From Zancudomyces culisetae (Eukaryota > Kickxellomycota > Harpellomycetes > Harpellales > Legeriomycetaceae): a stretch of DNA of 27,004 nt. Positions 2,706 to 24,959 of this stretch are shown here, piece after piece. The notes beneath the pieces were generated by a model that saw nothing but the letters and a program-made list of their open reading frames with translations, searched no databases and was not told where the DNA came from. The position numbers were made by a program, and so were the translations under genes. The stretch lies in contig LSSK01001953.1 of the NCBI GenBank assembly GCA_001969505.1, positions 1 to 27,004 on the forward strand, read 5' to 3'. Every line of letters starts with the position of its first letter. Position 1 is the stretch's first letter.

Positions 2706-3140
2706 TGTAGTATAATGGCTCGATACTTTTAGCTAGAAATCAATAGCGATTCCTGAGTGGAACAGAAACACCAATGAGAGAAAACACAATCAATGTTAAA
2801 AACGATCTGTGACAGAAAAGTGAATAGCAAAGCAAATAAAACTAGACGTGACAACCAAAAGTAACATCTTTAGCCTTTCTTAACGGAATATGCCTTACAT
2901 GTGCGTTTATACATACTTTTTAATTGCAACTAGTACTTGATACAAATATAGTTTACTTTAATTTATTATTATTATAACAAAAATAAAAGGTTATTAAAAG
3001 CATTCTTATTATGGCAATCAGAACTAGTGAGGTGATCCGAGACCTGAGTATAATTTACAAAATATGCGCTATGACAAACCCAGCCATCATATTGGCTCAA
3101 AAGTATAACAGATTAGTTATAACTTATACTATATTTTACT
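2706..3140 (+). mobile_element. Solo LTR, family M (same family as 25167-25640)
   Basis: It begins TGTAGTATAATGGCTCGATA and runs parallel to the 5' LTR at 25167. Shared blocks include ACATCTTTAGCCTTTCTTAA, then GAACTAGT followed by GTGATCCGAGACCTGAGTAT. The 3' end is decayed (expected ...ATTACA, found ...TTTTACT), so the end is approximate and no target duplication is visible. Sense is set by the gag frame of the other copy. It ends about 119 bp from the 3' end of tRNA-Val. Confidence 0.75.
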
Positions 3141-3258: not shown

Positions 3259-3331
3259 TAGAGCTATTGGGGATCGAACCCAAGACCTTCTGCGTGTAAA
3301 GCAGACGTGATAGCCACTACACCATAGCTCT
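3259..3331 (-). tRNA. tRNA-Val (anticodon UAC)
   Basis: A full cloverleaf can be folded on the minus strand. The acceptor stem AGAGCTA pairs with TAGCTCT, followed by discriminator A. The D stem is GTG/CAC. The anticodon stem TCTGC/GCAGA encloses loop TTTACAC (anticodon TAC). The T arm is TTGGG-TTCGATC-CCCAA. Length is 73 nt with no intron. The intragenic B box (GGTTCGATC) is intact. A dense LTR stack begins 7 bp upstream of the 5' end, which places it at the Pol III initiation region. Confidence 0.95.
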
Positions 3332-3334
3332 TAT

Positions 3335-3338
3335 GTCG
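3335..3338. repeat. Target-site word GTCG next to tRNA-Val
   Basis: This 4-bp word lies 4-7 bp upstream of the mature tRNA. It recurs exactly at 3646-3649, 8694-8697, 8921-8924, 9332-9335, 11352-11355 and 11739-11742, each time between a CA-ending and a TG-starting unit. It is read as the target-site duplication reused by successive insertions. Confidence 0.85.
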
Positions 3339-3645
3339 TGTCCTGCGAGACAACTAATGTTTACAATTATGTACAATAATAGTAGTTTTTACTCCTTAGT
3401 GGTTTTTATACGTTATTGGACAGGTTTAAAGCTTAAACAATTTATCTAGGTATAAATATAAACTTTACAGTTTTAGGATTAAGTTTAGACTTTATTAGGA
3501 TAAATATATATCAATAAAGATAAGATATAACAACATATAAGTTATAAAGATAATAGTTTAAATATACTTTTAGTAGACTAGCTATAATTAAATAATACAC
3601 ACGTATTAATGCGTAAGAATTAACATTGGAAGCATTCTTGCGACA
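3339..3645 (+). mobile_element. Solo LTR, family A (copy 1)
   Basis: 307 bp from TGTCCTGCGAG to TTGCGACA, flanked on both sides by GTCG. A second copy of the same length, differing at few positions, lies at 17934-18240. It contains the CTCC..GTGG-TTTTTAT block found in other LTR families, which suggests plus sense. It is the unit nearest tRNA-Val and so probably the youngest of this stack. Confidence 0.85.
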
Positions 3646-3649
3646 GTCG

Positions 3650-3965
3650 TGTTAAGTTTTGAACTTACTTGTTTACTTTGTCATATTATTTGATATAATT
3701 CTATACTATAATATTTTATTACTATAAACTGTATATACTATATTCTTATTTTTTGAGTTCAAAGTTACTTTATTTGTGTTTTTCGGCAATGCCTTTTATC
3801 TCAGCTCATTTCGATAATAAAAATATTATAATAAATTGACTAAGTTATAAATGATGGACAAAAACCACGAGGGGAAAAAGGTCCAATCTAATAATACTGC
3901 TAATCCTATAAAACCAATAATTAAAAACTATGTAAAATTTGTTCACGTCATATGATTATATGACA
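3650..3965 (-). repeat. 3' LTR of family B element
   Basis: 316 bp with TG...CA ends. On the minus strand it begins TGTCATATAA, and the Gag-Pol stop codon lies inside it (3956-3958). It contains the TTGGACC / CCCC..GTGG / TTTTTGTCC hairpin block about 80 bp from its start. Confidence 0.95.
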
Positions 3966-6900
3966 GAACCCCTGCTCCAGATTGGACCTACCATCCTAAA
4001 TCTTTTTAGCTTTGACTTCAATGTTGTAGTAACATCTGGTATCATCTCGTCCTTATAGTGGTAGTGTTTCAGTAGGTCCCCGTGTACGAGGTCTCGGTTA
4101 CCATCACTGTCCGTTATAACATAGGTACCTAACCTCAATTTTCTGTCGACACGGTATGGGCCTTCCCATAGCTGTTCGAGCTTGCTCTGCGGTTGTTCCA
4201 CTTTTTTGAGCACTAGATTACCCTCCTTAAACTCGTACACTTGAACATTTCTATTGTACCTGATTCTTTCTTTCTCCTTAGTAGTTTTACTGTTCGTTAG
4301 CCCTGACCTCCTCAATGCAGGTAATTCCGACTTGATCGCTTCTACTCTTTCTTGTATGGCAATGTCCATATCCTCGACATCAGGCGGGGGTGTCCAAGTA
4401 CTTGGAGTAGAAATTTTAGTGCCATATAGCAGCTCCGCGGGACTAAATTTTGTGGCATTATTCCTCATTGTTCTAATGGCCAGAAGGGACTTCCAGATGT
4501 ACTGGTCCCAGTTCTCTTTATTTTTTCTACATTGCTTGACTAGAGAGTTCTTAAGTGTTTGGTTCAACCGCTCTACCTGTCCATTGCTTTGGGGACGATA
4601 GGCTGTGGTTGGAGTGTGTCTGATCTCTAACTCTTGGTACAACTTTTCTGAAAGATTACTTATGAATCCTGCGCCTCTGTCTGTTATAACCTGAGCCGGA
4701 ACACCAAAGTTCTGAACTATTTCTGTGATGATAAAGTTAATAATGGTTTCTGTTTGAATATTACTTACTGCTATCGCTACTGGCCATTTTGTAAAGTAAT
4801 CTATCCCCGTAAGAATAAATCTATTTCCGGCCTTTGATATAGGTGATATCGGCCCTATAGCATCGAGTCCAAATATTTCAAAGGGTCTTGGAGCCAATAT
4901 GGGTTGGAGTCCTATCCTTTTTACTCGGCTTCCTTTAAATAATTGACAGCTCTCGCATTGGTTTACTACAGCTTTTACTGTATCAAATAATCTATTCCCT
5001 GTAAATTTTTCTTTAACTTTTAGCCATGTGTTTGTCATTCCTTCATGTCCTTCCTCATGTATTAGTTTTATTTCGTTGTAGACATTACGTTCGTGAAGTA
5101 CTTCCTTTTTATTACCCTTTACTATTCTTACTAGCTTATCACCTTGCAACTTGTATTTACGGCTTTTGTCTCTTAATCTTTTTCTGAAACTCTCGTCTGC
5201 ATTATTAGGATAGTTATAACTTCTTAAATATTCCTTTATCGCTTCATAATAAAGAAAATCCATAGCAAAGACGTCGATAGTCTCTTCCTTCTTAGGTATG
5301 TTATCAGTTTCTAACCTTGACAGCGCGTCGGCGGGATTGTTCTTTCCTTGGCAATGTACTATGGTGTAATTGTAATTCCTTAGAATCATTGCCCAACGGG
5401 CAACTCTTCCAGTGATCTCTGTTCTGTCGAATAGCTGGAGAAGTGATTTATGGTCGGTTCTGATAGTAAAGTGACGACCCCATAGATAGTATTTAAACTT
5501 TTTGATTGACCACACTAGTGCTAACCCTTCCAAATGAGTCACACTGTAATTCTTTTCATGTTTGTTGGTGGTACGACTGATGTAGCATATGGGCTTTTCT
5601 TCATTGTTCTTTAACTGAGACAAAATTCCACCAATACCTTTGTAAGATGCATCAGTAGTTAATATAAACTCTTGTTCCCAATCGGGATGGGTTAGAGTCG
5701 GGGGTGAGCAGAGTGCGTTCTTTAGCTTCTCAAACGCCATTTCCATTTCGTCGTCCCAAGTCCACTTCGAATTCTTTTTTAATAATTTTAATAGAGGTAC
5801 TGTTGTTAATGCATATTCCTTAACAAACTTACGATAGTAGCCAGTCAAGCCTAAGAATGATTGTAGCTCTTTTACTGACGTAGGTCGCATAAACTTCTGT
5901 ATTGCTTCTATCTTAGCTGGACTTGTTTCAATCCCCTCTTCAGTTAAGACGTGTCCCAGATACTCTATCCTCCTCATTCCCAAGTAGGTCTTATTTCTGT
6001 GCAGTTGAACCTTGTTGCTTTTCAATAGATCAAATACTTGCCTTAGGTCTTCTACATGCGTGTCTAAGGATTTTGAAAAGACGATGATGTCGTCTATAAA
6101 AACTACGGCAGATTTCCACAGGACAGGCTCCAATGTTTTTTCCATGAGCCGCTGAAATGAAGCTGGGCTATTAGTAAGCCCAAATGGCATTACGTTATAG
6201 CAGTAGCTTCCACTGCCCGGTATGGAGAAGGCAGTTTTCTCCCTATCTTTTTCCGCCATTTTTATCTGCCAAAATCCGTTGAGGGCATCTAACGTGCTGA
6301 ACACGATAGATCCGGATAATGACATGAATATATCGTCTATTGTAGGGAGCGGGTATACATCCTTCTTAGTTACTTGGTTTAATCGCCGGTAATCGGCACA
6401 GATCCTCAGCTTCCCATTCTTTTTCCAGACGGTTACTACAGGGGAGCACCATTCTGACGCGCAGGGTGAGATTATTTTGTTTTCCTCCATTACTTTCAGT
6501 TCACTTCTAACTTTTTGTTGGAGATGGTATGGTATGCGATAAGGGCGCTGCTTAATCGCTTTACCATCTGTCAGCTCTATGGTGTGTTCAACCACGTCCG
6601 TCTGTGTTAGTTCTTCTAAGTCCTCTACAAACAGATCATTATACTCCTCTCTCAATCTGTCAAATCTAACGTCGTCATATTTATCTTGCACCTCAGCCTC
6701 AATACTATCTAGCTTTGCCATCAGGTATATCTCGGAATAGTTTTGAGCCGAGCTATCACTGTATGAGTTTGTGTATATAGGAACTACCAGCTCTGCGCTC
6801 GTCAATGGTATTTTTACCGATCTAGTTTGTAAGTCGATAATTACCTTGTATCTCTGTAAGAAGTCAGTACCCAAGATCAGTGTGTTGTCCATACGATCCA

Positions 6901-8344
6901 TTATAGTCATGTCCGTGGGGAACTCCATTCCCCCTATTTCCAATGGCACTCCTATTATCTTTCCTCTGGTCAAATGCTTCTTTCCATCTGCTGTTATAAT
7001 AATCTGATTTTCATCCGGTTCTGACATCAAACCCCATTCTTCAATTAGGTCAGGTGTGGCTACCGAGCAAACGGCACCCGTATCTACGATTGTTATTACT
7101 TCACTACCAAACACTGAGGCTCGAATTTTGCAATTAGATTGTTTCGGCTCTTCCATGTATAACTCGTTAATTTCATTTTTCTTTACTTTTTTGTTTAACA
7201 TGGACAACTCATTGGATAACTTTGGTGACACTTCAAGTAGTTGTGGAAGTGAGATGTGTGGATAGAAGGTGGCTAGCTCTTCATTTAACGAGAATGGTTT
7301 TACGTTTTCCGCCATCTTCAATGGTGCTGAAATTTTAGCTGGCTGTTTCTTTGGTTCTGACATAGGCATATCCTCTTGGACCTCCATTTTAATCTGTGTC
7401 AGATGCGGTGCCTTTACATGTTCTTGGCGTGCTTGTGTTGCCTTGTATGGATTGGCTCTGACCTCTGGGCTCTTTCGGCGTTGAACGGCCAACACTTCAC
7501 TGGTTTCTGATTCCATTCTTTCTGTTTCTAGTACGTTTACACCGCGGTCCTGAGGGGGTGATTGGTTCCTGTATTGGCTGGGGTTTGCCTTACATTCATG
7601 TCGCTTGTGTCCTAACTTCTGGCAGTTAAAACATCTCACCGGCCTCGGTACGTACCTATGTCTCGGGTTTCCTGTGTTTTGTACGGACTTCATCCGCCTT
7701 TCTACAGCTTCGTCTACTTTGGAGAGTATGTTAACACTCCACTCTTCCATCTTGTTAAGCATGTCCTGATATCCTATACTTCCTGTTGTGTTTTCTCCAG
7801 TGCGCCTACCCAATCCTGAATGCTCCTCACGTTGCGCTGCCTCCAATTCTGACCTCCAAGATGTATTCTGCACCTTGGTTCTCTCGTTTTCCATTATCCA
7901 ATTGATTACCTCATCCCATTCGGATAGTTTTCCTTCTCTTACCTTGATCTTATATTCTGGCCTTAAAGAACTAACAAGCCAATTGAATTTGGCTGTTTCA
8001 TCTTCCACATTAGCGTCTCTCAGGGATACTTCCAATGCATACTCTAGCTCCTCAATTGAACTATAGTTTTCTTGTTTTATTTCTTTTAATTTATCGTAAC
8101 TCATGTACCCCTGATTTTCCTTGCTGAACTTGTCCCTAAACTCTACTGTAAAGGTTGTCCAGTCGGTAAATTTACCCAAGTTCTTCTTATACCAAATGAG
8201 TTCTCTTCTACCTAACTTTAACTGAATTAGGTCTATCCAATCTGACTCATCCCACTTATTTAACTTGGATAGTAACCTAAACTGGTTTAACCATTCCATA
8301 GGTTCAATATCACTTGACTCTTCAAATCTTTGAATACTATCCAT
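3956..8344 (-). CDS. Ty3/Gypsy Gag-Pol polyprotein (1462 residues, single frame)
   Basis: The frame runs from ATG at 8344 to TAA at 3956 without stop or frameshift. Gag comes first, with a zinc knuckle CFNCQKLGHKRHEC at about residues 238-251 (CX2CX4HX4C). The aspartic protease has its active site DTGA at 421-424. Reverse transcriptase spans roughly 600-780, with D686 and FIDD at 749-752. RNase H carries D898, E939 and D964. The integrase has an H1096/H1100/C1130/C1133 zinc finger and a D1161, D1222, E1258 triad with 35 residues between the last two. A GPY/F-type segment (LWEGPYRV) lies near 1392-1399, and no chromodomain is seen. Gag and Pol are fused, so the Gag:Pol ratio must be set by processing or another route. 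The last codons and the stop lie in the LTR. The ATG is 34 bp from the LTR, which supports this start. Confidence 0.95.
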   Translation of the reverse strand: MDSIQRFEESSDIEPMEWLNQFRLLSKLNKWDESDWIDLIQLKLGRRELIWYKKNLGKFTDWTTFTVEFRDKFSKENQGYMSYDKLKEIKQENYSSIEELEYALEVSLRDANVEDETAKFNWLVSSLRPEYKIKVREGKLSEWDEVINWIMENERTKVQNTSWRSELEAAQREEHSGLGRRTGENTTGSIGYQDMLNKMEEWSVNILSKVDEAVERRMKSVQNTGNPRHRYVPRPVRCFNCQKLGHKRHECKANPSQYRNQSPPQDRGVNVLETERMESETSEVLAVQRRKSPEVRANPYKATQARQEHVKAPHLTQIKMEVQEDMPMSEPKKQPAKISAPLKMAENVKPFSLNEELATFYPHISLPQLLEVSPKLSNELSMLNKKVKKNEINELYMEEPKQSNCKIRASVFGSEVITIVDTGAVCSVATPDLIEEWGLMSEPDENQIIITADGKKHLTRGKIIGVPLEIGGMEFPTDMTIMDRMDNTLILGTDFLQRYKVIIDLQTRSVKIPLTSAELVVPIYTNSYSDSSAQNYSEIYLMAKLDSIEAEVQDKYDDVRFDRLREEYNDLFVEDLEELTQTDVVEHTIELTDGKAIKQRPYRIPYHLQQKVRSELKVMEENKIISPCASEWCSPVVTVWKKNGKLRICADYRRLNQVTKKDVYPLPTIDDIFMSLSGSIVFSTLDALNGFWQIKMAEKDREKTAFSIPGSGSYCYNVMPFGLTNSPASFQRLMEKTLEPVLWKSAVVFIDDIIVFSKSLDTHVEDLRQVFDLLKSNKVQLHRNKTYLGMRRIEYLGHVLTEEGIETSPAKIEAIQKFMRPTSVKELQSFLGLTGYYRKFVKEYALTTVPLLKLLKKNSKWTWDDEMEMAFEKLKNALCSPPTLTHPDWEQEFILTTDASYKGIGGILSQLKNNEEKPICYISRTTNKHEKNYSVTHLEGLALVWSIKKFKYYLWGRHFTIRTDHKSLLQLFDRTEITGRVARWAMILRNYNYTIVHCQGKNNPADALSRLETDNIPKKEETIDVFAMDFLYYEAIKEYLRSYNYPNNADESFRKRLRDKSRKYKLQGDKLVRIVKGNKKEVLHERNVYNEIKLIHEEGHEGMTNTWLKVKEKFTGNRLFDTVKAVVNQCESCQLFKGSRVKRIGLQPILAPRPFEIFGLDAIGPISPISKAGNRFILTGIDYFTKWPVAIAVSNIQTETIINFIITEIVQNFGVPAQVITDRGAGFISNLSEKLYQELEIRHTPTTAYRPQSNGQVERLNQTLKNSLVKQCRKNKENWDQYIWKSLLAIRTMRNNATKFSPAELLYGTKISTPSTWTPPPDVEDMDIAIQERVEAIKSELPALRRSGLTNSKTTKEKERIRYNRNVQVYEFKEGNLVLKKVEQPQSKLEQLWEGPYRVDRKLRLGTYVITDSDGNRDLVHGDLLKHYHYKDEMIPDVTTTLKSKLKRFRMVGPIWSRGSVI
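3966..3977 (-). other. Polypurine tract of family B element
   Basis: Read on the minus strand this is GAGCAGGGGTTC immediately before the 3' LTR. It is mostly purine and in the position where plus-strand DNA synthesis is primed. It overlaps the coding frame. Confidence 0.55.
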
Positions 8345-8360
8345 TTTCTATCAATTGGGT

Positions 8361-8376
8361 CCTGGCTGGATCACCA
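8361..8376 (-). other. Primer-binding site of family B element
   Basis: One base inside the 5' LTR the minus strand reads TGGTGATCCAGCCAGG, starting with the TGG that pairs with a tRNA CCA end. I cannot assign the primer tRNA. It does not match the four tRNAs in this window. Confidence 0.65.
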
Positions 8377-8377
8377 C

Positions 8378-8693
8378 TGTTAAGTTTTGAACTTAGTTGT
8401 TTACTTTGTCTTATTATTTGATATAATTCTATACTATAATATTTTATTACTATAAACTGTATATACTATATTCTTATTTTTTGAGTTCAAAGTTACTTTA
8501 TTTGTGTTTTTCGGCAATGCCTTTTATCTCAGCTCATTTTGATAATAAAAATATTATAATAAATTGACTAAGTTATAAATGATGGACAAAAACCACGAGG
8601 GGAAAAAGGTCCAATCTAATAATACTGCTAATCCTATAAAACCAATAATTAAAAACTATGTAAAATTTGTTCACGTCATATGATTATATGACA
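8378..8693 (-). repeat. 5' LTR of family B element
   Basis: 316 bp, TG...CA ends, about three differences from the 3' LTR (near 8387, 8403 and 8540 region). As the 5' LTR it should carry the element promoter. A further solo copy is at 18587-18897. Confidence 0.95.
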
Positions 8694-8697
8694 GTCG

Positions 8698-8920
8698 TGT
8701 TGTATAATTACATGTTTAACGTCCTACTGAGTAATATAATTACCCAGTATTATACAGGACGGGACTTTTATTAATATATATTAGTACTATAATTATTGTG
8801 GGAGTAAAAGACAATTTATTAATTAATTCAAAACTAGACTATTTAATGGATAAAATAATACTATTTAAATTAACCAATAAAATACAAGGAAATACAGGTA
8901 TATATTTCTACTATATAACA
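8698..8920. mobile_element. Solo LTR-like unit, family C
   Basis: 223 bp, TGTTGTATAATT ... TATATAACA, with exact GTCG on both sides. Near its TG end it has the CGTCCTA ... AGGACGGG hairpin shared with families E, G and H. Sense is not known. Confidence 0.75.
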
Positions 8921-8924
8921 GTCG

Positions 8925-9331
8925 TGTTATATTTTTTTATGTAGTATCTGATCAGTACGTTTGAGTAGCCTGCTGTTTAATTCAGCTACTTCTGGTTCCG
9001 GTTGTGTAGCTAGTATCTTAACCGTGTATGCTTGTTTATGTTTTAATTATTATATTTATACTTAGATACTTATACTATTAATCTTGATTTTGTTTATTTA
9101 CGATAGTGCTATTAGGTAATAAGAATAAAACTAATAGATATTGATTATGTAAAAAAAGTTAGATTCAAAAAACTAATTATATATGTTGTTTTTTCTCTGC
9201 ACCCTTGTGCCATTTTTTGATATTAAATACTAAATAATTAAGAATAAAAAATAAACTATTGATAGGTGTTCGATTGGATAAAAAAAAACCTTTCGGAAAA
9301 AAATCCAACACGAACATTTCGCTATATGACA
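8925..9331 (-). mobile_element. Solo LTR-like unit (family not seen elsewhere in the window)
   Basis: 407 bp, TGTTATATTTTT ... CTATATGACA, with exact GTCG on both sides. On the minus strand it holds a decayed form of the shared block (TTGGATTTTTTTCCG then AAAGGTTTTTTTTTATCC), which suggests minus sense. Confidence 0.7.
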
Positions 9332-9335
9332 GTCG

Positions 9336-9709
9336 TGTCGTGAATTTTAATCACCACAATTTATAATTTTTTCCCACTGGGTTTTTAATAAATTGCTAAG
9401 ATGGTTAGATTAAATTCACGTTACATTCCCGTAAATCCGCATGACAAAGCATTTCAGATGGATCGACAGTTGAGAAAATCATCCCCAACACGTTTATAAA
9501 TTTTAATGACTGGATTTACAATTTTAGCTTATGTTTCATTTACTTGTTTCAGATTATTATTATTTCACATGTTATCATGTAATTTCTATGATTAAGGTAT
9601 TTTATTAGGATAATAATTTTTACAGAATTTATATTAAGATTTAGTATTTCTAAAATAAAACAACATCAGTTCTCAAATACAGTTTTACTTATACTATATT
9701 TATACGACA
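9336..9709 (+). mobile_element. Solo LTR, family D (copy 1)
   Basis: 374 bp, TGTCGTGAATTTTAATCACC ... TTTATACGACA. GTCG precedes it. The spacer after it is decayed (TTG). It contains TTTTTTCCCACTGGGTTTTT about 50 bp from the start, as do the copies at 19926 and 24616. It lacks the clear 26-bp repeats of the other two copies. Confidence 0.7.
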
Positions 9710-9712
9710 TTG

Positions 9713-9966
9713 TGTTGTGTGTTGCCATGTTTAACGTCCCATTTAGTGTTTTTTACACCAAAAATCACACGGGACGGGTCATTTTACTTACCATTTACTA
9801 TATGCTGCGAATTATTATATAGTACTTTGGATATTGCAAAAGAGGACATTTATTTAGTTAAACAAAAATTTCAATTTTATACAATAAAATCTACAAAAAA
9901 TCTAACTAAAAATTACAAAACACAATTAACCAGTGGAAATGTTTCACCTATTGTAGGCATACAACA
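9713..9966. mobile_element. Solo LTR-like unit, family E (copy 1)
   Basis: About 254 bp, from TGTTGTGTGTTGCCATG to GGCATACAACA. A near-identical copy is at 20423-20672. It has the hairpin AACGTCCC ... GGGACGGGTC near its TG end. The spacers are three bases (TTG, GTC), taken as worn target duplications. Confidence 0.75.
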
Positions 9967-9969
9967 GTC

Positions 9970-10518
9970 TGTTATCAAAAGCATAGATTGACAGCTTTTG
10001 TTTATCAATTAGTTGGAACTATTATAGTAATTATACTATGTACTATTTTATTATAAGTTTTCACTATAATACTATCTGTTCCTGTGTAGAACCAACTTTA
10101 TTAAATTGATGTTTTTTCTTTCTAGGTCTTTTAAACAACCTATTTATACAAAATTCAAATACTAATAGAAATTAATTTATACTAATAAACTACTTTTTTT
10201 TCTTTCTTATCATGTCATAGAAAAACCATAAAGATAAAAAAACTATACATGATTCCTACAAATAAATAAACATATGCAAACATTCATGATTTGCATAAAC
10301 AAATACTACTTAAAATATACTAATAAAATATGCACAGACTACTTCTGTGTTTACTAATAATAAATAAATATGTGTAAACTACAAACAAATATTACAATTA
10401 AGTCAAACAATTAAGTATAATATGATAAATAATAAATATTTACAAGAAAATATCATAAAATCATATAAATATTTATATAAATGATAAACATATAGGTATG
10501 TTTACTCATTATATAACA
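9970..10518. mobile_element. Solo LTR-like unit, family F (copy 1)
   Basis: About 549 bp, ending ATTATATAACA. From TTTATCAATTAG on it resembles the unit at 20914. The first 24 bases (TGTTATC ... TTGACA at 9970-9993) look like a separate stub with its own TG and CA ends, so the true left end may be near 9997. Confidence 0.6.
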
Positions 10519-10789
10519 TGTTAGTCGTGTAGTAGAAATGTTTTACGTCCTACTTGAAAGCTATTGGCTTCCAAGAACTACACGAGACGGGCCGCTAATA
10601 GTTAATATTTGTAAATATTTATATGTACTATTATTTTATTCAAGAGACGACAAATTTATTTAACTAAAAATTTCATTGATTTAAATACTACAAAATCAAC
10701 TACAAAAACTATTTAATAAATAACCAATAAAATAACACTATTAATTACAATAGATGAGAAATCTATAACGTATAATATTTTATACGACA
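10519..10789. mobile_element. Solo LTR-like unit, family H (relative of G)
   Basis: 271 bp, TGTTAGTCGTGTAGTAG ... TTATACGACA. Its first part aligns with family G (GTCGTGTAGT, then A..ATG) and has the same hairpin (CTACTTG ... CCAAG.ACTACACG). No spacer remains on either side. An alternative start at 10528 would leave an exact GTCG before it. Confidence 0.65.
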
Positions 10790-11117
10790 TGTTAATGAAT
10801 AAAAAGTATTGTTATATCTTTTAATTAGGTTTACTATATCGTATTTATTTTTAATACTAATATTAAACTTTTACTAGAATAGACTGTTTTTCTAATTGTG
10901 AATAAAGATGTTTTTATTTTTTCTTCCAAGTGGGAGCTTCATTTAACCCCCAAAATATTTGACTAATTAAACTAAAATAACTAACTAATAAAAAACTATT
11001 GGACAAAACCACAAGGGGAAAAAGGTCCAATCTAAACATATAAAAATAACTAAAAATAACTTAAATAAAACCGGGGACTAATTCCCCTTATGCTTCTAAT
11101 CGTATTTCTATACGACA
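10790..11117 (-). mobile_element. Solo LTR, family J (copy 1)
   Basis: 328 bp. On the minus strand it starts TGTCGTATAGAAATACGAT and contains TTGGACCTTTTTCCCC, GTGG, TTTTGTCCAA, then GGGGGTTAAA. The second copy, in opposite orientation, is at 24621-24952. Confidence 0.75.
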
Positions 11118-11120
11118 TCG

Positions 11121-11351
11121 TGTCGTCTAGTGAAAATGCTTAACCTCCTACTTGGTAACTTTCGCTACCAAGTACTACACGGGACGGGTCAATTTCAATA
11201 TATATAAATTTATTATACTATTATTTATCTGTGGAAAAGAACAATTTTTAATTAAATCCATTCAAACATATTTATACTAATTCTATAAAATACTAAATAA
11301 AACTAACCAATAAAATTGGGACAACTCTTCAGTATAGTTTACTATACGACA
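11121..11351. mobile_element. Solo LTR, family G (copy 1)
   Basis: 231 bp, TGTCGTCTAGTGAAAATGC ... TTACTATACGACA. It closely matches 18900-19133. The hairpin CTACTTGGTA..GCTACCAAGTA is perfect in its core. Spacer TCG precedes it, and exact GTCG follows. Confidence 0.8.
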
Positions 11352-11355
11352 GTCG

Positions 11356-11738
11356 TGTAATATTTTATTTATTATTTAAAATATTTTATACACGTTATGG
11401 GTAATAAGTGTCTAAACACCTTGCTATTTACTCTCAAGAGAGAGTTTAAACTATCTTGTTGCGTAACTAACAATTATGGAGGTGTAGACAGTCTTTTGTT
11501 ATATTATACTATATATTTATTCCTCTTATAAAATATATATTATATTAACTTATATGTATAATTATTTCTATACAAAACTGATAACAAAAGAACCTACTAT
11601 CAGAGAAGTCAGATAAAACCCTCTTCGGGAGAAAAGTCCAATCTTCTCACACGTTTATAATAACTAATAAATAATAAACGAGAAACTGGTATTACCTAAT
11701 ATTGTAGTCCAGGGGTAATCACGCCAATTTTATATGGA
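11356..11738 (-). mobile_element. Solo LTR-like unit, family N (copy 1)
   Basis: 383 bp between two exact GTCG words. The right end reads TATATGGA instead of TATATGACA, a small deletion. The minus strand carries GATTGGACTTTTCTCCC then GGGTTTTATC. It is distantly similar to 17129-17538. Confidence 0.65.
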
Positions 11739-11742
11739 GTCG

Positions 11743-12108
11743 TGTTAACGAATTTGTATGTTTATATAGAAAATCCGTTTATTTAATAGTTATGTTGGTT
11801 TTTAGGGATATATGTGGCGTAGAATCTACTTGTGGCTTAGATTAATGGGCTCACTTAATCCGTCATAATGATCTTAAAAAATATCTACTAATGGCTAAAT
11901 ACTGCAAACTCTTAGTATATGTGTTTATTTTCTAAAAAGATAAGATAAGAACCAAAACTTGCTATCGAAATTTCTCACTAAAAAAACCTAACAAAAATTG
12001 CCAAGGAAAAAAGCGTCCAATTTCTAAATTAATTTTGATTACGTATTTCCATTGAATTTCTTCAATTTCCATACACTATTTTTATAAAGTATAAAATATT
12101 ATACGACA
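11743..12108 (-). mobile_element. Solo LTR-like unit, single copy in this window
   Basis: 366 bp, TGTTAACGAATTTG ... ATTATACGACA, preceded by GTCG and followed by GTG. A worn version of the shared hairpin block is on the minus strand near 12000-12030. Confidence 0.6.
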
Positions 12109-12111
12109 GTG

Positions 12112-12297
12112 TGTCGTACTTATTTTACGACTTTAATAATTTACTATATATTTTATACAATTTAACGATTTACCATAACAATCGTCGAACAATCTAATAT
12201 TCGCTTCGTCCTATTGTTTATTATATTGTTTAATTTAGTATAATAAGCTAGATTTTATTATTTTTTCTACTTTTTATAGCGAAAGGGAAAATATTAT
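12112..12297. mobile_element. Truncated LTR-like unit, outer edge of the tRNA-Val stack
   Basis: It begins TGTCGTACTTATTTTACGAC after a GTG spacer, but no CA end is visible before the next segment starts at 12298. It is probably an LTR cut off at its right side. Confidence 0.4.
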
Positions 12298-12400
12298 TGT
12301 CAAGATCTGGAGTCTGGAGAGTTATATTTATTATTATTGAAGTTTATTGAATGAATGTATACAAGATACTAGATACTGAATCCAAGACAGGAAAATTGTA

Positions 12401-12411
12401 CCCTTTTTATA
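12401..12411 (-). promoter_or_regulatory. TATA box of family V LTR
   Basis: TATAAAAAGGG on the minus strand, about 200 bp downstream of the heat-shock arrays and about 55 bp before the poly(A) signal. Confidence 0.55.
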
Positions 12412-12605
12412 CTTTTTTCCACGCCTTGGGTTTAGAATAAAACCACTATGAAAACTGCGGAATAGCTAAAAATGCAAGCTAAAGAAAAACGTGTTTGATT
12501 ACTAATCCAATTTGATTATTAATCAAACAAAAATCAATTTCGAATGCTATAAAATTAAACTTGTGAAAATTATTACGTAAGAAAAATTATTAAATTATGA
12601 GAATT

Positions 12606-12638
12606 TTCGGAAATGTTCTAGAATGTTGGGGAACTTTC
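12606..12638 (-). promoter_or_regulatory. Heat-shock-element array 1
   Basis: Seven alternating TTC/GAA half-sites in exact 5-bp phase at 12606, 12611, 12616, 12621, 12626, 12631 and 12636. Five are perfect; two are one-base variants (AAA, TTG). This is the binding pattern of trimeric heat-shock factor. Confidence 0.7.
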
Positions 12639-12666
12639 TAAACAATACTGCAGAATAAATGAACGA

Positions 12667-12694
12667 TTCTAGAACGTTTTCGAACATTCTAGAA
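12667..12694 (-). promoter_or_regulatory. Heat-shock-element array 2
   Basis: Six alternating half-sites in exact 5-bp phase at 12667, 12672, 12677, 12682, 12687 and 12692 (TTC, GAA, TTT, GAA, TTC, GAA). Only one differs from consensus, and by one base. It starts 29 bp from array 1. Confidence 0.75.
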
Positions 12695-13888
12695 TCACTT
12701 CATGACAGGTAGGCTTACAATAACATCCATGGAAATGGAAGTCCAAGGTTTTTTGTGAATAGGTCAAGGTTGTAGTTGACCAAAAGGTTTATGTCTAATA
12801 TGTTTGCATCTATTACGTTGATTGCATGTTGTTACATACTCCTTGATAAACTTGTTCATATTAGGCCAATAAAAGTTTTTTGAGATTAATTCCAACGTTT
12901 TAGTCTGACCATAGTGTTCAGCAGTAGGTGAATCATGGTAATTTATAAGTATTTGAAACTTAATAATATTGTTTTCTGGTACGTATATTGTATTTATATA
13001 CTAGCAGCCTATCTTTACACTAAAGTTTTTTAAATAATTATATTAAGTATATTTGTATGGTTGTTATGTAAGAAATCAAATTCCATTCTCGAGTTTTTGT
13101 CAATGTTGTGAGCATTTTTAATGCGAATAGTAATACTATCAATTGGTTTGGAGTCAATCGTAGCCGAAAGTATCAGTTGTCCAGGTTTTAGTAAGGTATG
13201 TAGGAATTGTATGGTGTTATCTCCCTCTTTTGGAAAATGGACTGGTCGACGAGAAAGAGCGTCGGATTTTCGATTTTTAGATCCTGGGGTATATTTAATA
13301 ATAAAATTGTAGTTTCCTAGTAGTTCTACCCATCGAGCCTATCGACTGTTCAACGACTTAGTTGATGTAAAATATTCTAGATTCTTGTGATCCGTTATAA
13401 CTGTAATCTGATATTGAGCTCACTCTAGGTATGCTCGTCATACTTTAAAGGCCTCGACGATTGCGAGCATGTCTTTGTCATAGATTTCATAATTTATTTC
13501 TGCTGAATGTAATAATCGAGAATAGAACACAATTGGGTGAGAAAATTATCTTCACATTTTTGTTGGATGACTCCGCCTATGGCAAAGCCAGACGCGTCTG
13601 TTTCAATAGTAACAGGTAAGGTAGGGTTAAAGTATCTTAATTTGGGTGCTGAAGTAAATGCTGCTTTAAGGTTATCATATGCTAGTTGAGCTTGATTTGA
13701 CCAATTCCAATTTGTATCTTTTTGCAGTAATTTTGTTATTGGTGTCACTATTGCAAAGAAATTTTTTATAAACCTGCTATAAATTTTTGCAAAAACTATA
13801 AAGCATTGATCTCTTTTATATTTGTTGGTGTTGGCCATGAATTTACAGCATTAGTCTTTGCTGGGTACATCGTTACTCCTTGTGCTGA

Positions 13889-14626: not shown

Positions 14627-15086
14627 TGTTAGAACTAGATTTATTTTATTTATTGAACTTGATTTCGAAAAATATTAACTTTATTAAACTAAAGAGAATA
14701 TTTTTCACTGACGATTTCCACAACGAATTTCGTTGGGTTTATATTCTTTTTCGTCAGCAAAAATTTCATGAAATAAACCTAGGTAGCAAGACCTTGTTTA
14801 TCGAAGAAAAAATATTTTCTTACTTCGATAAACATTCAAGGAGTTTGACCCTTGATTAGTTTCATGATTTTCAATGTTGGGGTTTAGTTCAACATTGTGT
14901 TGTTTTGGTTTATATAAAATATAAACAGTTACTAAAAATCGAATTGTTAATAAATTAATTTCATGATTACCTAAATCAATTTATGTAACTTTACTAAGAT
15001 GGAAATTCAACTTACTAATTTAATTAAACTAAAATAGAAATAAAATTAATTAAAAAAAATTATAGAACTACGTTCTATTCATAACA
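14627..15086 (+). mobile_element. Solo LTR, family K (copy 1)
   Basis: 460 bp, TGTTAGAACTAG ... TATTCATAACA, with perfect 5-bp duplication CTTAC at 14622-14626 and 15087-15091, inside the RT region. It contains an A-rich hairpin with 10-12-bp arms (TTTATCGAAG ... CTTCGATAAA) and the block TTTCCACAACG..CGTTGGGTTTAT, which resembles the CCC/GGG-TTTTT block of other LTRs. Confidence 0.9.
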
Positions 15087-15324
15087 CTTACGTATAGATT
15101 TTAGCAAGTCTGAGCCAAAATATTATTTCGCCTATGAATGGCAGTGAATACGTGTTTATAATTTATATTTTAATTAATCCGCGATAATCTACACAGAGTC
15201 GTAGAGTTCATTCTTATTCTTTACGTATTTAATTGGGGCGCCAACTGGTGACAAAGAAGAGAGGATAATGCCTTATTCCAGGATATCCTTAAGGTATTCA
15301 CTAAGGGCTTTAAGTTCTGTTTCT

Positions 15325-15651
15325 TATTATGAATAAAACTAGTTCTATAATTTTATTTTACATAAACCAAAACAACCAAATGTTGAACTTAACCCCAACA
15401 TTGAAAATTATGAAACTAATCAAGGGTCAAACTCCTTGAATGTTTATCAAAGTAAGCAAATATTTTTTTTTTCGATAAACAAGGTCTTGCAACCTTGGTT
15501 ATTGTTTATGAAAATTTCTCTGACGAAAAAGAATATAAACCCAACGAAATTCGTTGTGGAAATCGTCAGTGAAAAATATTCTCTTTAGTTTAATAAAGTT
15601 AATATTTTTCTTAAATCAAGTTCTATTAATAAAATAAATCAAGTTATAACA
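15325..15651 (-). mobile_element. Solo LTR, family K (copy 2), inverted and internally deleted
   Basis: Reverse-complement copy of 14627-15086 with perfect 5-bp duplication TTTCT at 15320-15324 and 15652-15656. About 130-140 bp near its 3' end is missing, and its terminal CA (TA on the plus strand) has mutated. It lies in the upstream edge of the RT region. Confidence 0.88.
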
Positions 15652-16974: not shown

Positions 16975-17046
16975 TGCCTAATGGGTGGATCGAACACCCG
17001 ACCTTTGGTTTACAAGACCAACGCTCTACCACTGAGCTAATCAGGC
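16975..17046 (-). tRNA. tRNA-Thr (anticodon UGU)
   Basis: Minus-strand cloverleaf: acceptor GCCTGAT/ATTAGGC with one G-T pair, discriminator A, anticodon stem TTGGT/ACCAA with loop CTTGTAA (anticodon TGT), T arm GGGTG-TTCGATC-CACCC. Length is 72 nt, no intron. It is the downstream member of a tandem pair. Confidence 0.95.
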
Positions 17047-17052
17047 TAACAG

Positions 17053-17125
17053 TGCCTTCTGTCGGAATCGAACCGACGACCTTCTGCTTACTAGGCAGAC
17101 GCTCTGCCAACTGAGCCAAGAAGGC
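17053..17125 (-). tRNA. tRNA-Thr (anticodon AGU)
   Basis: Minus-strand cloverleaf: acceptor GCCTTCT/AGAAGGC, discriminator A, anticodon stem TCTGC/GCAGA with loop CTAGTAA (anticodon AGT), T arm GTCGG-TTCGATT-CCGAC. Length is 73 nt, no intron. It lies 6 bp upstream of tRNA-Thr(UGU), with no Pol III stop between them, so the two are probably made as one precursor. Confidence 0.95.
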
Positions 17126-17933: not shown

Positions 17934-18240
17934 TGTAGTGCGAGACAACTAATCTTTAGAATTATGTACAATAATAGTAGTTTTTACTCCTTAGTGGTTT
18001 TTATACGTTATTGGACAGGTTTAAAGCTTAAACAATTTATCTAAATATAAATATAAACTTTACAGTTTTAGGATTAAGTTTAGACTTTATTAGGATAAAT
18101 ATATATCAATAAAGATAAGATATAACAACATATAAGTTATAAAGATAATAGTTTAAATATACTTTTAGTAGACTAGCTATAATTAAATAATACACAAGTA
18201 TTAATGCGTGAGAATTAACATTGGAAGCATTCTTGCGACA
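17934..18240 (+). mobile_element. Solo LTR, family A (copy 2)
   Basis: 307 bp, the same length as copy 1 at 3339 and differing at only a few positions. Left spacer GGC, right spacer TGGC. Confidence 0.88.
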
Positions 18241-18899: not shown

Positions 18900-19133
18900 T
18901 GTCGTGTAGTGAAAATGCTTAACCTCCTACTTGGTAACTTACGCTACCAAGAACTACACGGGACGGGTCAATTATAATAATTTATAATTTTATATACTTA
19001 TTTTTTATCTGTGGAAAAGGACAATTTATTAATTAATTCACAATAAACATATTTATACTATTACTATAAAATACATCTATTAAACTAACCAATAAAATTG
19101 GGATAACTCTTCAGTATAGTTTACTATACGACA
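18900..19133. mobile_element. Solo LTR, family G (copy 2)
   Basis: 234 bp, TGTCGTGTAGTGAAAATGC ... TATACGACA, close match to 11121-11351 including the CTACTTGGTA / TACCAAG hairpin. The following unit starts with no spacer. Confidence 0.85.
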
Positions 19134-19538: not shown

Positions 19539-19921
19539 TGTTGTATCAAATTTCTGATTATATTATACGCAGTAATTAGGCAACGAATTGGTGATTGTTC
19601 CCGAGTACAATCGGACAATTGCAGTCAGCAATTGTCAATTAAGCAACGTTTTAAATATATTTTATATTATATACTATATATTGATACTCTTTATAAATAC
19701 GACGACAAGGAATTCATGGAATCCTGGTCGGGAATCATATATTTTCTTCATAGCGTTTATTATAGTTATATACTAATTAAAGGTTTAATAATACCAAAAC
19801 TAATGCTTGGAAAGGTCCTGGACCAATAATTATAGTTTTAATACTATCTTTTAGTGTATACAGCCTCGTCGTACTGTATTACACTTAGCTAAGTTAATAA
19901 AAACTCATTATTTACACGACA
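19539..19921 (+). mobile_element. Retroelement fragment with possible integrase C-terminal remnant
   Basis: 383 bp, TGTTGTATCAAATTTC ... TTTACACGACA. Unlike its neighbours it holds possible coding remains: AWKGPGPIII at about 19804-19833, and in another frame PRRTVLHLAKLIKTH at about 19864-19908. This is the kind of sequence found at the GPY/F end of Ty3 integrases. It also has a perfect 8-bp hairpin, ACAATTGC/GCAATTGT, at 19615-19635. It may be a fused internal fragment plus LTR and not a plain solo LTR. Confidence 0.4.
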
Positions 19922-19925
19922 TGGC

Positions 19926-20419
19926 TTTCGTGAAATTACTGAAGATTTAAAATCCATTTTCCCACTGGGTTTTTTTGATTGTAAATTCCGATAGTAATTT
20001 TACGACAATCAAATTCACAATGATGTCATCTTATTACATCACAGTGTACGTAAATCAGTTGAAGTCACTGTGAATGTAAATCTAATGACATCACTGTGAA
20101 TGTTTATCGATCTAGTTCAACTGTCGTGAGTCATTACAACTCACATCAATTAAAACAATGTTTATATTTCATATGAATTAGGCTATCTTTATTAAATTAC
20201 AGTAATATTTATTTAGTTTATTTTAAGTTTATTTAGCGTTTCTAAAAGTATAAAAGACGTTCAAATTTTCGTCAGAGAAGGAGGATCAACAATTTTATTT
20301 TATAATTATTTAATAACATATATAACAAATATAATAAAAATATAAAATACAAAATATATAATATTAACATTATCAATAATTAAATTTTTAGTCAATTAAT
20401 ACAAGCTATTAATACGACA
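19926..20419 (+). mobile_element. Solo LTR, family D (copy 2)
   Basis: 494 bp. Starts TTTCGTGAAATTACTG (expected TG worn to TT) after TGGC and ends TTAATACGACA. It has TTTTCCCACTGGGTTTTTTT near the start and tandem ATF/CREB-like repeats at about 20020-20105. Its first 300 bp match 24329-24616 in inverted orientation. Confidence 0.8.
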
Positions 20420-21224: not shown

Positions 21225-22763
21225 CAGTGACTAAAAAAATTGTTCAAATGTTTTTGATGTTCATTCAAAAATTAGTCTATCTCACGAATATTATATCGTA
21301 TCACTATAAAAAATTCAATTATTATACATTAATATACCATGTATTACCTATCAATATTTGGTATGCTTGAACCAGCCAATCAACTGTAGTTATTCTTTTT
21401 GTAATAATATTTTATTTGAACAATTTTTTTGCTAATAATAAAAAAATAATAAACGTAATTATACTAATATTTGGTAAATCCACCCCTGGCTTTCAATACT
21501 GCATTAATTCTTGATGGCATGCTACTGAATAGCGACATACACTCGTCACGTGTTATCATATTCTACTCGTCTTGTACGCGGTCCCAAAGTTCGTTTATCC
21601 CTTTTGGTGCATTTTCGTGATTTGATAGCCGTTTTTTCAAATTGACCCATAGATGTTCAATTGGATTTAGGTCAGGTGACTGCGCTGGCCAGTCAAGCAT
21701 CTGAATTGAGTTAGTTTGCAACCATTCTTTAGTAATTTCCGCGGTGTGTTTTGGATCGTTATCATGCTGAAAAATTGTACTTTCCCTGTCTAAGTCGTAC
21801 CACTCCATTGATTTTTATAGTTTGTCTTCAAGAATATCACATTACAATTCTGCATTAAGTCCGCAATCAATTTTAGTAAAATAGCCTGGGCCTTCTGAAA
21901 TCATGCATCCCCATATCATGATTGAACCTCCACCATGTTTTATAGATTTTTTAACATGGTTCGGTTTTAACTGGCTCCCTTGTTTTTTCCAGCACCACAT
22001 GCGCCCATCTGACATAAATCTGTTAATTTTAGTCTCGTCAGACCATATCACACGTTTCCAGTCTTCTACAGTCCAATGCTGATTATTTTTAGCAAATGCA
22101 AGTCGTTGTTAAATATGGCCTAAATTTTGCATAGGTTTTTTGACCTAGGTTTTGCACTTAAACCATTTATATTAAAGCTATTTCACACATTTTGAGGTAC
22201 CACATATACGAGGCCTTTATTTTGAAAAATTTTGTAGCGTCTGTCGCTGTATCAAATTGTCCAGACGTAATTTTACGAATTATTAATCGCTCATTAGCTT
22301 TTGTCAATTTATTTGGGCTGCCAGGTGATAATTTTTTTAATGATGGACGATACTTTGTTTTTAAGTTCTATATTGTCCCTTTACAAATAGATAGTTTAGA
22401 TGAAATTAGGCTATATGAGTAAACATTATATAGCAGATTTATAACACTCCAAACATTTTCATTATTGAGTTTTTTCATCGTATTTAAATTGTTCAAAAAT
22501 TTATATTTTAAATAATAAAGTACAGTGTAGTTAATAGTTAGTAATTTTTAGTACAATAAATATATTTTAAATGATATCTACTAACATGAAAAAGAAATCA
22601 CCAATAAAGATAATTAAATTTTTAACCAAAAAATTGTTCAAATAAAATATTTTACAAAAAGTAGTACTACAGTTGATTAACAAGTTCAATTATTTTAAAA
22701 ATTTAATAGGTAATACATGGTATATGGATGTATAATATTTGTAAATTTTATATGGATATGATA
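21225..22763 (-). mobile_element. Tc1/mariner element A, decayed
   Basis: The left end is CAGTGACT after a TA (21223-21224). Inverted repeats are readable from about 21295 to 21440 on the left against 22620-22763 on the right (ATACCATGTATTACCTAT, AATCAACTGTAGT, TTTTATTTGAACAATTTTTT). The outermost 70 bp of the right repeat is missing, replaced at 22764 by element B. It carries one broken transposase. Confidence 0.8.
21464..22478 (-). pseudogene. Tc1/mariner transposase, broken (element A)
   Basis: About 338 codons from ATG at 22478 to a TAG at 21464, the usual length for the family. The N-terminal helix-turn-helix region (MKKLNNENVWSVINLLYNVY; later SPGSPNKLTK as the GRPR-like linker) holds one in-frame stop. 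A frameshift separates it from the catalytic half. All three catalytic residues are still visible: [20 protein letters not shown] and NPIEHLW, with 34 residues between the second D and the E. Further stops lie at 21842-21844, near 21808 and at 21563-21565, the last replacing the tryptophan expected after QDE. It cannot make an active protein. Confidence 0.92.
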
Positions 22764-22765
22764 TA

Positions 22766-22987
22766 CAGTGAGTTTCATTAATGTCTCAAAATATTAAAAA
22801 TAATTTGCAAAGTGTATTATCTCGCTCAATAATATCCAGAAATTATATGTTTTTTATATTATATAATGCACAAATGTTATATTCAGTTTATATATAAACT
22901 GTATTTTTATTGGTTAAAAATTAATTATGAAATTATATATTGAAAAAATTTTAAAAATGAGACAATTTTGGGAATTTTTCAAAAAAA
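22766..22987 (+). repeat. Left inverted repeat of element B
   Basis: About 222 bp. The outer end holds TGTCTCAAAATATT, and the inner end holds the same motif in reverse (AATGAGACAATTTT), so each arm has two facing copies of a possible transposase binding site. It overlaps the transposase stop codon at 22979-22981. Confidence 0.85.
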
Positions 22988-23999
22988 TACTTTAAAATTC
23001 TTCCACCTCTCTTTAGACTTGATAACTGCCTCAACTCTTTTGGGCATACTATCTATAAGACCAAGTATTGTTTCCACTGAAATTAAATTCCATTCCGTTT
23101 CTATTCGCTCCCATAATTCGATCATCCCGGACGGAGGTTTACTGTATCTATTTAGGCGTCTTTTGATGATTGCCCATATAGTTTTGATTGGGTTTAAGTC
23201 TGGAGATTGTGGCGGCCAGTCCAATGTATTATATTCCTGGTTTTCAAGCCAGCATGTAACTAACTTTGAGGTATGTTTAGGATCATTGTCATGTTGAAAT
23301 ATTATTGACTTGAGATCCAACTTGTAGTACTTTATTGTATTGCTAAGCTCGTCTTTTAAAATGTTTAAATAACCTTGCTTGTTTAACATTCCTGCTATTC
23401 GGCACATGTAACCAGTTCCAAATGCTGTGATGCATCCCCAAATCAATATTGATCCACCACCGTGTTTTACGGTCTGGATAATATTGTGCGGCTGTAGACT
23501 CACACCATCACGAACCCAAGTCCATTCATTTCCATCAGATCCAAATCGGTTGATTTTAGTTTCGTCGGACCAAATTACTCGTCTCCAATCATCAGTAGTC
23601 CAGTGGCGATGAGATTTTCCGAATCTCAACCTTTTTGCAATATTTTTAAGGCTCAGTTTCGGTTTGGATGTTTTTTTTTGCAACAGCATTTAGTTCATTA
23701 AAAGCCCTATTAATTGTAGACTTACTAGCACATACATTATTATCCATTTCTAACTTCCTTTGTACCGAAGTAGCAGATCGATACTCTCCAGATAATATCA
23801 TTCTAGTACATATTCGCTTGCTTTGGGATGAAAGCTTCGCTGGACGACCGCGTTTATTAGCCGGTAAATTGATATTCATTGCTGCTTTAATTCTGTATAT
23901 TGTTGCTTTACTAACCCCATGTTCTATAATGATTTGGTCATTGTTTCTGCCTTCAAGTATCGCGTTTTTTATATCCAGTTTACGTTGTTCAGATATCAT
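22979..23999 (-). pseudogene. Tc1/mariner transposase with one frameshift and a lost catalytic Glu (element B)
   Basis: ATG at 23999, stop at 22979, full family length of about 340 codons. Residues 1-103 form two helix-turn-helix units (GVSKATIYRIK; ASKSTINRAF) joined by a GRP linker (NKRGRPAKLS). A run of nine T on the plus strand at 23671-23679 shifts the frame; one base fewer would join the two parts. The catalytic half has VIWSDETKINRF, KHGGGSILIWGC and [10 protein letters not shown], but the third acidic residue is Lys: NPIKTIW, codon AAA at 23183-23185, 34 residues after the second D. A single G to A change from Glu explains it. The frameshift alone might be a sequencing error; the E to K change would still disable catalysis. 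Confidence 0.92.
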
Positions 24000-24106
24000 A
24001 GTTTAAAAAATTATATTTTAGATTAGTATAATGGTGTTATATATTTAATATGTAAAAGTTTTAAAAATTTAAAATTTGTATTCATAAAGTTATGATAGTT
24101 TAAATT

Positions 24107-24328
24107 TTTTTTTGAAAAATTCCCAAAATTGTCTCATTTTTAAAATTAATTCAATTTATAATTTCATAATGTATTTTTAACCAATAAAAATACAGTCTAT
24201 ATATAAACTGAATATAACATTTGTGCATTATATAATATAATAAACATATAATTTCTGGATATTATTGAGCGAGATATTACACTTTGAAAATTATTTTCAA
24301 TATTTTGAGACATTTTACAAACTCACTG
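24107..24328 (-). repeat. Right inverted repeat of element B
   Basis: Mirror of 22766-22987 with about 90 percent or more identity by eye, including the same inner and outer TGTCTC motifs. Confidence 0.85.
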
Positions 24329-24616: not shown

Positions 24617-24620
24617 AAAC

Positions 24621-24952
24621 TGTCGTATGAAGATACGATTTTATATAATTAGCTTTATTTATTCATTAGGTTTTTAGTTAATAGTTTTGAGATTGGACCT
24701 TTTTTCCCCCTGTGGTTTTTGTCCAATAGTTTAGTTAGTTATTTACATTATATTTCCTCATTAATTATATTATTATCTGGGGGTTAAAGCAACCGCCCAC
24801 TTTGAATTAAATAAAAACACATCTTAACAAAATATTAAGTTAAACATATATAGTATTAAAAAATACAATAATACTAAAATAATATACTTAGTAATAAACA
24901 TATAATACAATAAGAATATTAAATAATCATAGAATTGTGAAATTCTGGAACA
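24621..24952 (+). mobile_element. Solo LTR, family J (copy 2)
   Basis: 332 bp, TGTCGTATGAAGATACGAT ... TTCTGGAACA. It has GATTGGACC, TTTTTTCCCCC, GTGG, TTTTTGTCCAA and GGGGGTTAAAG in the same order as 10790-11117. AAAC precedes it and AACC follows, possibly a worn 4-bp duplication. Its end is exactly 7 bp from tRNA-Leu. Confidence 0.78.
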
Positions 24953-24959
24953 AACCAGT

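Follow-up and report, generated by a model that had tools for sequence, protein, structure and literature searches.

A stack of long terminal repeats sharing a 4-bp word upstream of a tRNA-Val gene in the gut fungus Zancudomyces culisetae

Introduction

Several retrotransposons of the Ty3/gypsy type are described as integrating next to genes transcribed by RNA polymerase III (Pol III). Ty3 integrates between the TATA box and the start site, at -6/-2 relative to the transcription start site, with a 5-bp target duplication, and its targeting is guided by contacts with transcription factor IIIB (TFIIIB), those of the chromodomain among them (PMC8632968). Tj1 of Schizosaccharomyces japonicus, a gypsy/Ty3 element, integrates upstream of Pol III genes with a 5-bp duplication (PMC4600332), DGLT-A of dictyostelids is a Ty3/gypsy element with a single open reading frame (ORF) and no chromodomain that is found upstream of transfer RNA (tRNA) genes and has many solo long terminal repeats (LTRs) (PMC5006619), and the beta LTRs (Tca8) of Candida albicans are biased to positions upstream of tRNA genes (PMC7175516). 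Here we describe a stack of mutually different LTRs upstream of a tRNA-Val gene of Zancudomyces culisetae, in which one 4-bp word, GTCG, recurs between neighbouring units. The stack lies in a stretch of 27,004 nucleotides (the window) that is the whole of contig LSSK01001953.1 (C769) in a genome of 23.1 Mb in 859 contigs (GCA_001969505.1). Contig C328 of this genome encodes a P-type ATPase that is 100% identical to a Z. culisetae protein. Z. culisetae is an early-diverging fungus that lives in the guts of aquatic insect larvae, such as those of mosquitoes.

The locus resembles Ty3/sigma of Saccharomyces cerevisiae in its Ty3/gypsy element, its fixed position just upstream of Pol III genes and its short target duplication. 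Unlike in Ty3, the duplication is 4 bp and not 5, and the start of the LTR lies 7-8 nt from the mature tRNA. Ty3 can insert in either orientation, whereas each family described here has a single orientation at tRNA genes, co-directional with the tRNA where the strand of the element is known. The duplication also differs in length from that of Tj1, and the spacing from that of DGLT-A, whose distance upstream of tRNA genes in D. discoideum is 13-33 bp (PMC5006619). In the accessible text of the respective papers, no reused-word stack is described for DGLT-A (PMC5006619), no stack is mentioned for Tj1 (PMC4600332) and neither a stack nor a reused word is reported for Tca8 and the beta LTRs (PMC7175516). 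The same holds for a stack with a reused duplication in the accessible text of PMC5911963, PMC5006619, PMC4600332, PMC8632968, PMC7175516, PMC3276169 and PMC12611240; the main text of the last of these, the 2025 genome paper of Z. culisetae, contains none of the terms 'tRNA', 'LTR' or 'Gypsy'. Ty3-like targeting naturally leads to repeated use of one site; the mechanism is therefore of a known kind, and what sets the locus apart is the depth of the stack, the 4-bp duplication, the short distance, the uniform orientation at tRNA genes and the existence of parallel stacks that differ in their words.

Results and Discussion

The target gene, a tRNA-Val (TAC) predicted by ARAGORN, occupies 3259..3331 on the minus strand and is followed, on its upstream side, by a 3-nt spacer, TAT (3332..3334, minus strand), and the tRNA-proximal copy of the site word, GTCG (3335..3338). 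The word thus stands at -4 to -7 from the mature 5' end, where a first-pass annotation of this DNA had placed it. Thirteen junctions were read by eye outward from the gene. All five innermost are exactly GTCG: the proximal copy itself and those between units A and B (3646..3649), B and C (8694..8697), C and D (8921..8924) and D and E (9332..9335). Among the eight outer junctions two are exact, between J and K (11352..11355) and, after a worn LTR end (GGA), between K and L (11739..11742), and one, between G and H, holds GTCG with extra bases (TGTTA + GTCG, 10519..10527). The remainder carry worn or absent words, as had been noted before: TTG, which is worn or a different word, between E and F (9710..9712), GTC between F and G (9967..9969), none between H and I, which abut directly (10789/10790), TCG between I and J (11118..11120) and GTG between L and M (12109..12111). 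Units A, B, C, D and K are flanked by exact GTCG on both sides.

The first-pass annotation had listed seven junctions with GTCG between a CA-ending and a TG-starting unit. All seven read GTCG followed by TG, and an eighth, at 10524, is set off from the preceding LTR end by TGTTA; the strict form CA-GTCG-TG, however, is found in just five of the seven, because 3335 is preceded by the tRNA spacer TAT and 11739 by GGA instead of ACA. One further GTCGTG, at 9337, lies inside an LTR start and is no junction. In 1000 dinucleotide shuffles, the strict form, present five times in 3335-12115, occurred 0.039 times on average and at most once, while GTCGTG, present nine times in the stack, occurred 0.7 times on average and at most five; the commonest CA-NNNN-TG word of each shuffle, whatever its letters, averaged 1.9 occurrences with a maximum of four.

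Apart from unit B, a full-length Ty3/gypsy element (3650..8693, minus strand), the units are solo LTRs or LTR-like stretches. Solo LTRs are unit A (3339..3645, 97.4% identical to 17934-18240 in a second stack, upstream of a tRNA-Thr gene), unit C (8698..8920, with copies on contigs C668, C37, C141 and others), unit E (9336..9709, with a copy adjoining tRNA-Arg on C637), unit F (9713..9966, with copies adjoining tRNA-Arg, -Asn, -Ala and -Thr, and probably on the minus strand, judging by a purine-tract-like stretch beside two copies), unit G (9970..10518), unit H (10528..10789), unit I (10790..11117), unit J (11121..11351, with a copy at 18900-19133 in the tRNA-Thr stack), unit K (11356..11738) and unit L (11743..12108). 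The LTR-like unit D (8925..9331) and the putative LTR M (12112..12720, distal end uncertain) are so called from their ends only, with no long copy of either found elsewhere. Pairwise comparison of units A to L gave at most about 70% similarity over half the length (C, F, H and J are mutually 62-70% alike, B and I 63%), and on these grounds tandem duplication is rejected as the source of the repeated word.

Judged by its sequence, unit B is a Ty3/gypsy (Metaviridae) element. Its 3' LTR (3650-3965) and 5' LTR (8378-8693) end in TG/CA and are 99.05% identical, and they enclose a single gag-pol ORF of 1462 codons (3956..8344, minus strand), a primer binding site of 18 nt complementary to the 3' end of tRNA-Arg(ACG) with CCA (8359..8376, minus strand) and a polypurine tract, GGAGCAGGGG, adjoining the 3' LTR. 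Searched in three pieces against Pfam, the ORF gave, in order, an aspartyl protease, reverse transcriptase (RVT_1), RNaseH, H2C2 and the integrase core (rve), with a gag match below the cut-off. The top solved structure for the RNaseH-integrase piece, among 29 matched sequences, was Ty3-G Gag-Pol (7q5b_A, E 1.8e-42), and its strongest named relatives, among the best 120 of 317, belong to Zancudomyces and Smittium. The Pfam matches include no chromodomain and the ORF ends 65 residues past the GPY triplet (counted by eye); in contrast to Ty3, where the chromodomain is the ruler, there seems to be little room for one at the C-terminus.

The window provides its own control for the question of whether the word is a property of the site or of the elements. 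ARAGORN identified two tRNA-Thr genes at 16975-17125 (minus strand) and a tRNA-Leu(TAA) at 24959-25042 (plus strand), and the tRNA-Thr (AGT) at 17052..17125 (minus strand) is the target of the second stack, which extends from 17129 to about 20913. Its words are GCT, GGC, TGGC, GC, GC, none, GTCT, TGGC, GAC, TGGC and GC, where the TGGC at 19922 was read by eye before a worn LTR start. Four families of the tRNA-Val stack have copies in it (A 97.4%, B 95.3%, F 90.8% and J 89.8% identical), and these carry GTCG-type words at tRNA-Val and mostly TGGC-type words (TGGC, GGC or GC) at tRNA-Thr. Other tRNA genes have yet other words. Copies of unit F show TGTT at tRNA-Ala and CTGT at tRNA-Arg, and a copy of unit E shows TTTT at another tRNA-Arg, while a further LTR, identical over 270 bases, is flanked by GTTT at tRNA-Thr(CGT) (C95 and C469, perhaps a single locus represented twice) and by TTTT at tRNA-Ser (C332). 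Two of the four F copies examined at both ends have two-sided 4-bp duplications, TTTT at tRNA-Asn (C841) and TCAC on C233; those on C776 and C531 both continue into the same CCTCCCCCC stretch, taken for the polypurine tract of full-length elements. The LTR upstream of tRNA-Leu (24621..24959, plus strand) is arranged in mirror orientation, AAAC-LTR-AACC-AGT-tRNA, with its two flanking words one base apart. Since shared families have different words at tRNA-Val and tRNA-Thr, other words occur elsewhere and the distance between tRNA and LTR is nearly fixed, the word belongs to the site, as first proposed, and not to the elements.

Further LTR stacks, with no tRNA on the stretch examined, have apparent words of varying clarity: GTCT (C668), GTCG (C141), TTT(T) (C238), TTTAA/TTA (C679) and GTAG (C660). 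When hand-read words were compared (45 junctions in six stacks, omitting the innermost tRNA-Thr junction and one unclear C668 junction), similarity was 0.506 within stacks and 0.341 between them, a difference that 0 of 10000 permutations reached. Words of the same family in different stacks had a similarity of 0.395 (22 pairs; the labels of families E, G, c and m rest on distant similarity), barely above the between-stack level. Words taken by regular expression only, with chance matches kept (52 junctions in eight stacks), gave 0.333 within and 0.215 between stacks (again 0 of 10000), and p 0.0004 without the tRNA-Val stack. Taken singly, the tRNA-Val (p 0.018) and tRNA-Thr (p 0.023) stacks were the only significant ones, C238 having too few junctions for this test. 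A junction pattern applied genome-wide gave 61 matches against 50 in a reversed control; these are mostly chance, and the pattern was used solely where it met known LTRs.

A nearly constant feature across sites is geometric. The LTR starts 7-8 nt from the 5' end of the tRNA in 14 of the 15 recognised tRNA-adjacent LTRs, six of which were chosen because a search had shown an LTR near a tRNA. The distance is 7 nt at Val (TAT+GTCG), Leu (AGT+AACC), Lys on C772 (ATT+ACGT), Lys on C2 (CAC+TTTT), Ser on C620 (TTA+CTCT), Thr(CGT) on C95 and C469 (TAT+GTTT) and Ala on C738 and C78, and 8 nt at Ser on C332, Arg on C637 and C776, Thr on C531 and Asn on C841. ARAGORN boundaries alone give 6 nt for Leu and 7 nt for Asn, both corrected by one base according to the acceptor stem; the C531 tRNA-Thr, incomplete in the stretch examined, was read by eye. 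The C772 and Ser LTRs were recognised through similarity to LTRs on other contigs, which for C772 amounts to just 61% over 353 columns. Fifteen of 37 tRNA flanks carry TTTT at the word position, and an LTR was recognised behind one of them; in a few others the flank closes with a T-run plus TG. Orientation relative to the tRNA is uniform within each family in 21/21 tRNA-linked copies, a count in which the first copy of each family is uninformative: F agrees in 8/8 (Val, Thr, C776, C841, C738, C78, C531 and C772), E and J in 3/3 each and A, B and G in 2/2 each, and the LTR at tRNA-Leu points the same way as the related unit B. The full-length unit B shows that its own orientation is co-directional with the tRNA.

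We consider it very probable that the stack arose by serial integration of Ty3-like retrotransposons at one Pol III-defined position, each event renewing the 4-bp target duplication. Ty3-like elements of Z. culisetae would integrate where the Pol III machinery assembled on a tRNA gene, presumably through TFIIIB, sets the position, and at tRNA-Val integrase joining would duplicate the four positions -4 to -7, counted from the mature 5' end. With the tRNA, its spacer and a single copy of the word left in place at the gene, the next element would meet the same site, duplicate the same word and displace the older element outward. LTR-LTR recombination would then turn most elements into solo LTRs and mutation would wear the outer words, and the outcome would be a stack of different LTRs parted by one site-specific word. 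Some apparently worn words (GGC and GC from TGGC; TGTCG and TGTCT, with one extra base) may instead reflect a fixed distal and a variable proximal cut. The fullest version of this reading, with roughly twelve retrotransposons representing a dozen LTR types inserted at the same base pairs of a single Pol III initiation site in one orientation, the flank serving as a chronological tape of the genome's retrotransposon history and parallel tapes with different 4-bp words at other tRNA genes, is in our view evenly poised. The specificity of Ty3-like integration is usually studied with new insertions; a stack of this kind would present many successive natural insertions at one base-defined site, in which the word between neighbours reports the cut positions of each event, and would offer a series for measuring the precision, orientation and turnover of integration. 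It would also show the reach of Pol III-directed targeting in protecting a compact genome and extend the phenomenon to an early-diverging insect-gut fungus.

Several observations weigh against this reading. Within the tRNA-Val stack the outer junctions include inexact ones (TTG, GTC, none, TCG and GTG), and unit F is flanked by unlike words in both stacks, TTG/GTC at tRNA-Val and GAC/TGGC at tRNA-Thr. The tRNA-Lys stack (C772) mixes ACGT, ACG, GTTT, TTAA, none and TT, and the single-stack word test was non-significant for C668 (0.31), C141 (0.90), C772 (0.71), C660 (0.07) and C679 (0.14). GTCG also appears away from the tRNA-Val site, at two of seven junctions on C141 (one preceding unit C, the other following a worn LTR end), where one more junction reads TGTCG and yet another GTC; ARAGORN found no tRNA in the 3.7 kb examined of this contig, whose end is repeat sequence, and the word there may mark a different tRNA gene with an identical flank or a preference of wider scope. 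A tRNA-Val(TAC) on C716 has TAT-TTTT at the word position; GTCG is therefore not a common property of tRNA-Val genes, and it is the stack itself that marks the word as native here; no empty allele of the site was found among the 47 matches listed. The one exception to the distance rule is the tRNA-Thr of the window, 3 nt from the first LTR-like TG; assuming a small deletion between two TG copies would, conjecturally, bring this site back under the rule. Finally, C668, C679 and C419 carry LTR copies in both directions, with no tRNA seen between them.

The first-pass annotation had also proposed that the stack is ordered by age. Private substitutions relative to other copies were used as the measure, nearest-copy identity being dropped as sampling-dependent, and amounted to 2/304 for A (polarised solely by a copy 75% alike), 4/223 for C, 3/254 for F, 8/523 for G, 2/324 for I, 10/230 for J and 6/364 for L, with B represented by 1.5/316, one half of the difference between its two LTRs; for D, E, H, K and M there were too few usable copies (fewer than three each) for dating. 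The Poisson slope on rank has p 0.039, the families shared with tRNA-Thr diverge more with increasing rank at tRNA-Val (97.4, 95.3, 90.8 and 89.8%, n=4), and FastTree terminal branches are short for A and B, long for J and near zero for I. The two innermost units are thus among the least diverged, as proposed, but the trend with rank hangs on unit J: without it the Poisson slope has p 0.31, and Spearman correlation is 0.5 (p 0.21, n=8). The inner end of the stack looks young; the data show no ordered gradient further out, and age order as a whole is weakly supported, a further point on the opposing side.

Ectopic recombination or gene conversion between LTRs of different tRNA loci, by which units and flanking words would partly have been copied, would account for the GTCG before unit C at both tRNA-Val and C141, the mixed words of the tRNA-Lys stack and the flat divergence of units C, F, G, I and L. 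Families shared between tRNA-Val and tRNA-Thr nevertheless differ in their words, which argues against copying of whole units with their flanks between these two loci, and unit C has different neighbours on C141; we regard this explanation as improbable. Integrases might instead prefer a GTCG-like target, which resembles the LTR terminus TGTCGT, making the word a sequence preference and not the mark of one reused site. The recurrence of GTCG on C141, of GTCT on C668 and of one GTCT in the tRNA-Thr stack would fit such a preference, yet the same or related families use TGGC/GC at tRNA-Thr, TTTT at tRNA-Asn, TTT on C238, TCAC on C233, TGTT at tRNA-Ala and ACGT at tRNA-Lys, and it is the distance to the tRNA, not the word, that is nearly constant, so we hold a preference of this kind to be decidedly improbable. 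An assembly artefact is conceivable in a genome of this many contigs, several of which end inside LTRs adjoining tRNA genes, but is very unlikely for a single whole contig of 27,004 bases with an open full-length element, mutually different units and similar junctions on other contigs. Junctions of LTR-LTR circles or of tandem complementary DNA concatemers integrated together would explain why LTRs abut with few bases between them, but can be dismissed because neighbouring LTRs come from different families, the inner bases of element B (G before the primer binding site, TTC on the polypurine side) yield no GTCG and the same family has a different word at each site.

Several features neighbour these stacks or recur around tRNA genes. 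A repeat at 2834-3139 and 25334-25639, with many copies genome-wide, is found downstream of tRNA genes, at distances of about 120 bp (tRNA-Val) and about 290 bp (tRNA-Leu) in the window and of 69-234 bp at eight other tRNAs (C283, C247, C772, C565, C117, C573, C650 and C698). The copy at 25334-25639 precedes an ORF (25759-26589) that is gag-like by eye and has no Pfam match, and the repeat is perhaps a second element, targeting the 3' side of tRNA genes. Closely spaced, co-oriented tRNA pairs a few nt apart (Thr-Thr, Cys-Pro, Arg-Lys, Val-Ser and Lys-Ala) occur at 16975-17125 and on C440, C574, C619, C810, C698, C804, C108, C332, C620 and C78, which suggests dicistronic precursors. Two near-identical tRNA-Val/tRNA-Ser pairs (C332 and C620) have different LTRs at almost equal upstream positions and are perhaps alleles, or paralogues, hit independently.

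Between the two stacks of the window, 14627-15651 carries nested inverted repeats with arms of 46, 106 and 121 nt that are 85-96% complementary, and may hold further pol remains. Beyond the tRNA-Thr stack, a Tc1/mariner-like transposase ORF (DDE_3, Pfam; 22979-23689) lies within 235-nt inverted repeats (22761-24333), 21480-22500 resembles, by eye, a second and broken one, and an outer pair of 253-nt inverted repeats is found at 19911-20163 and 24379-24631. The first ORF of the window, for which a homologue search returned no match, is MIF4G-like (Pfam).

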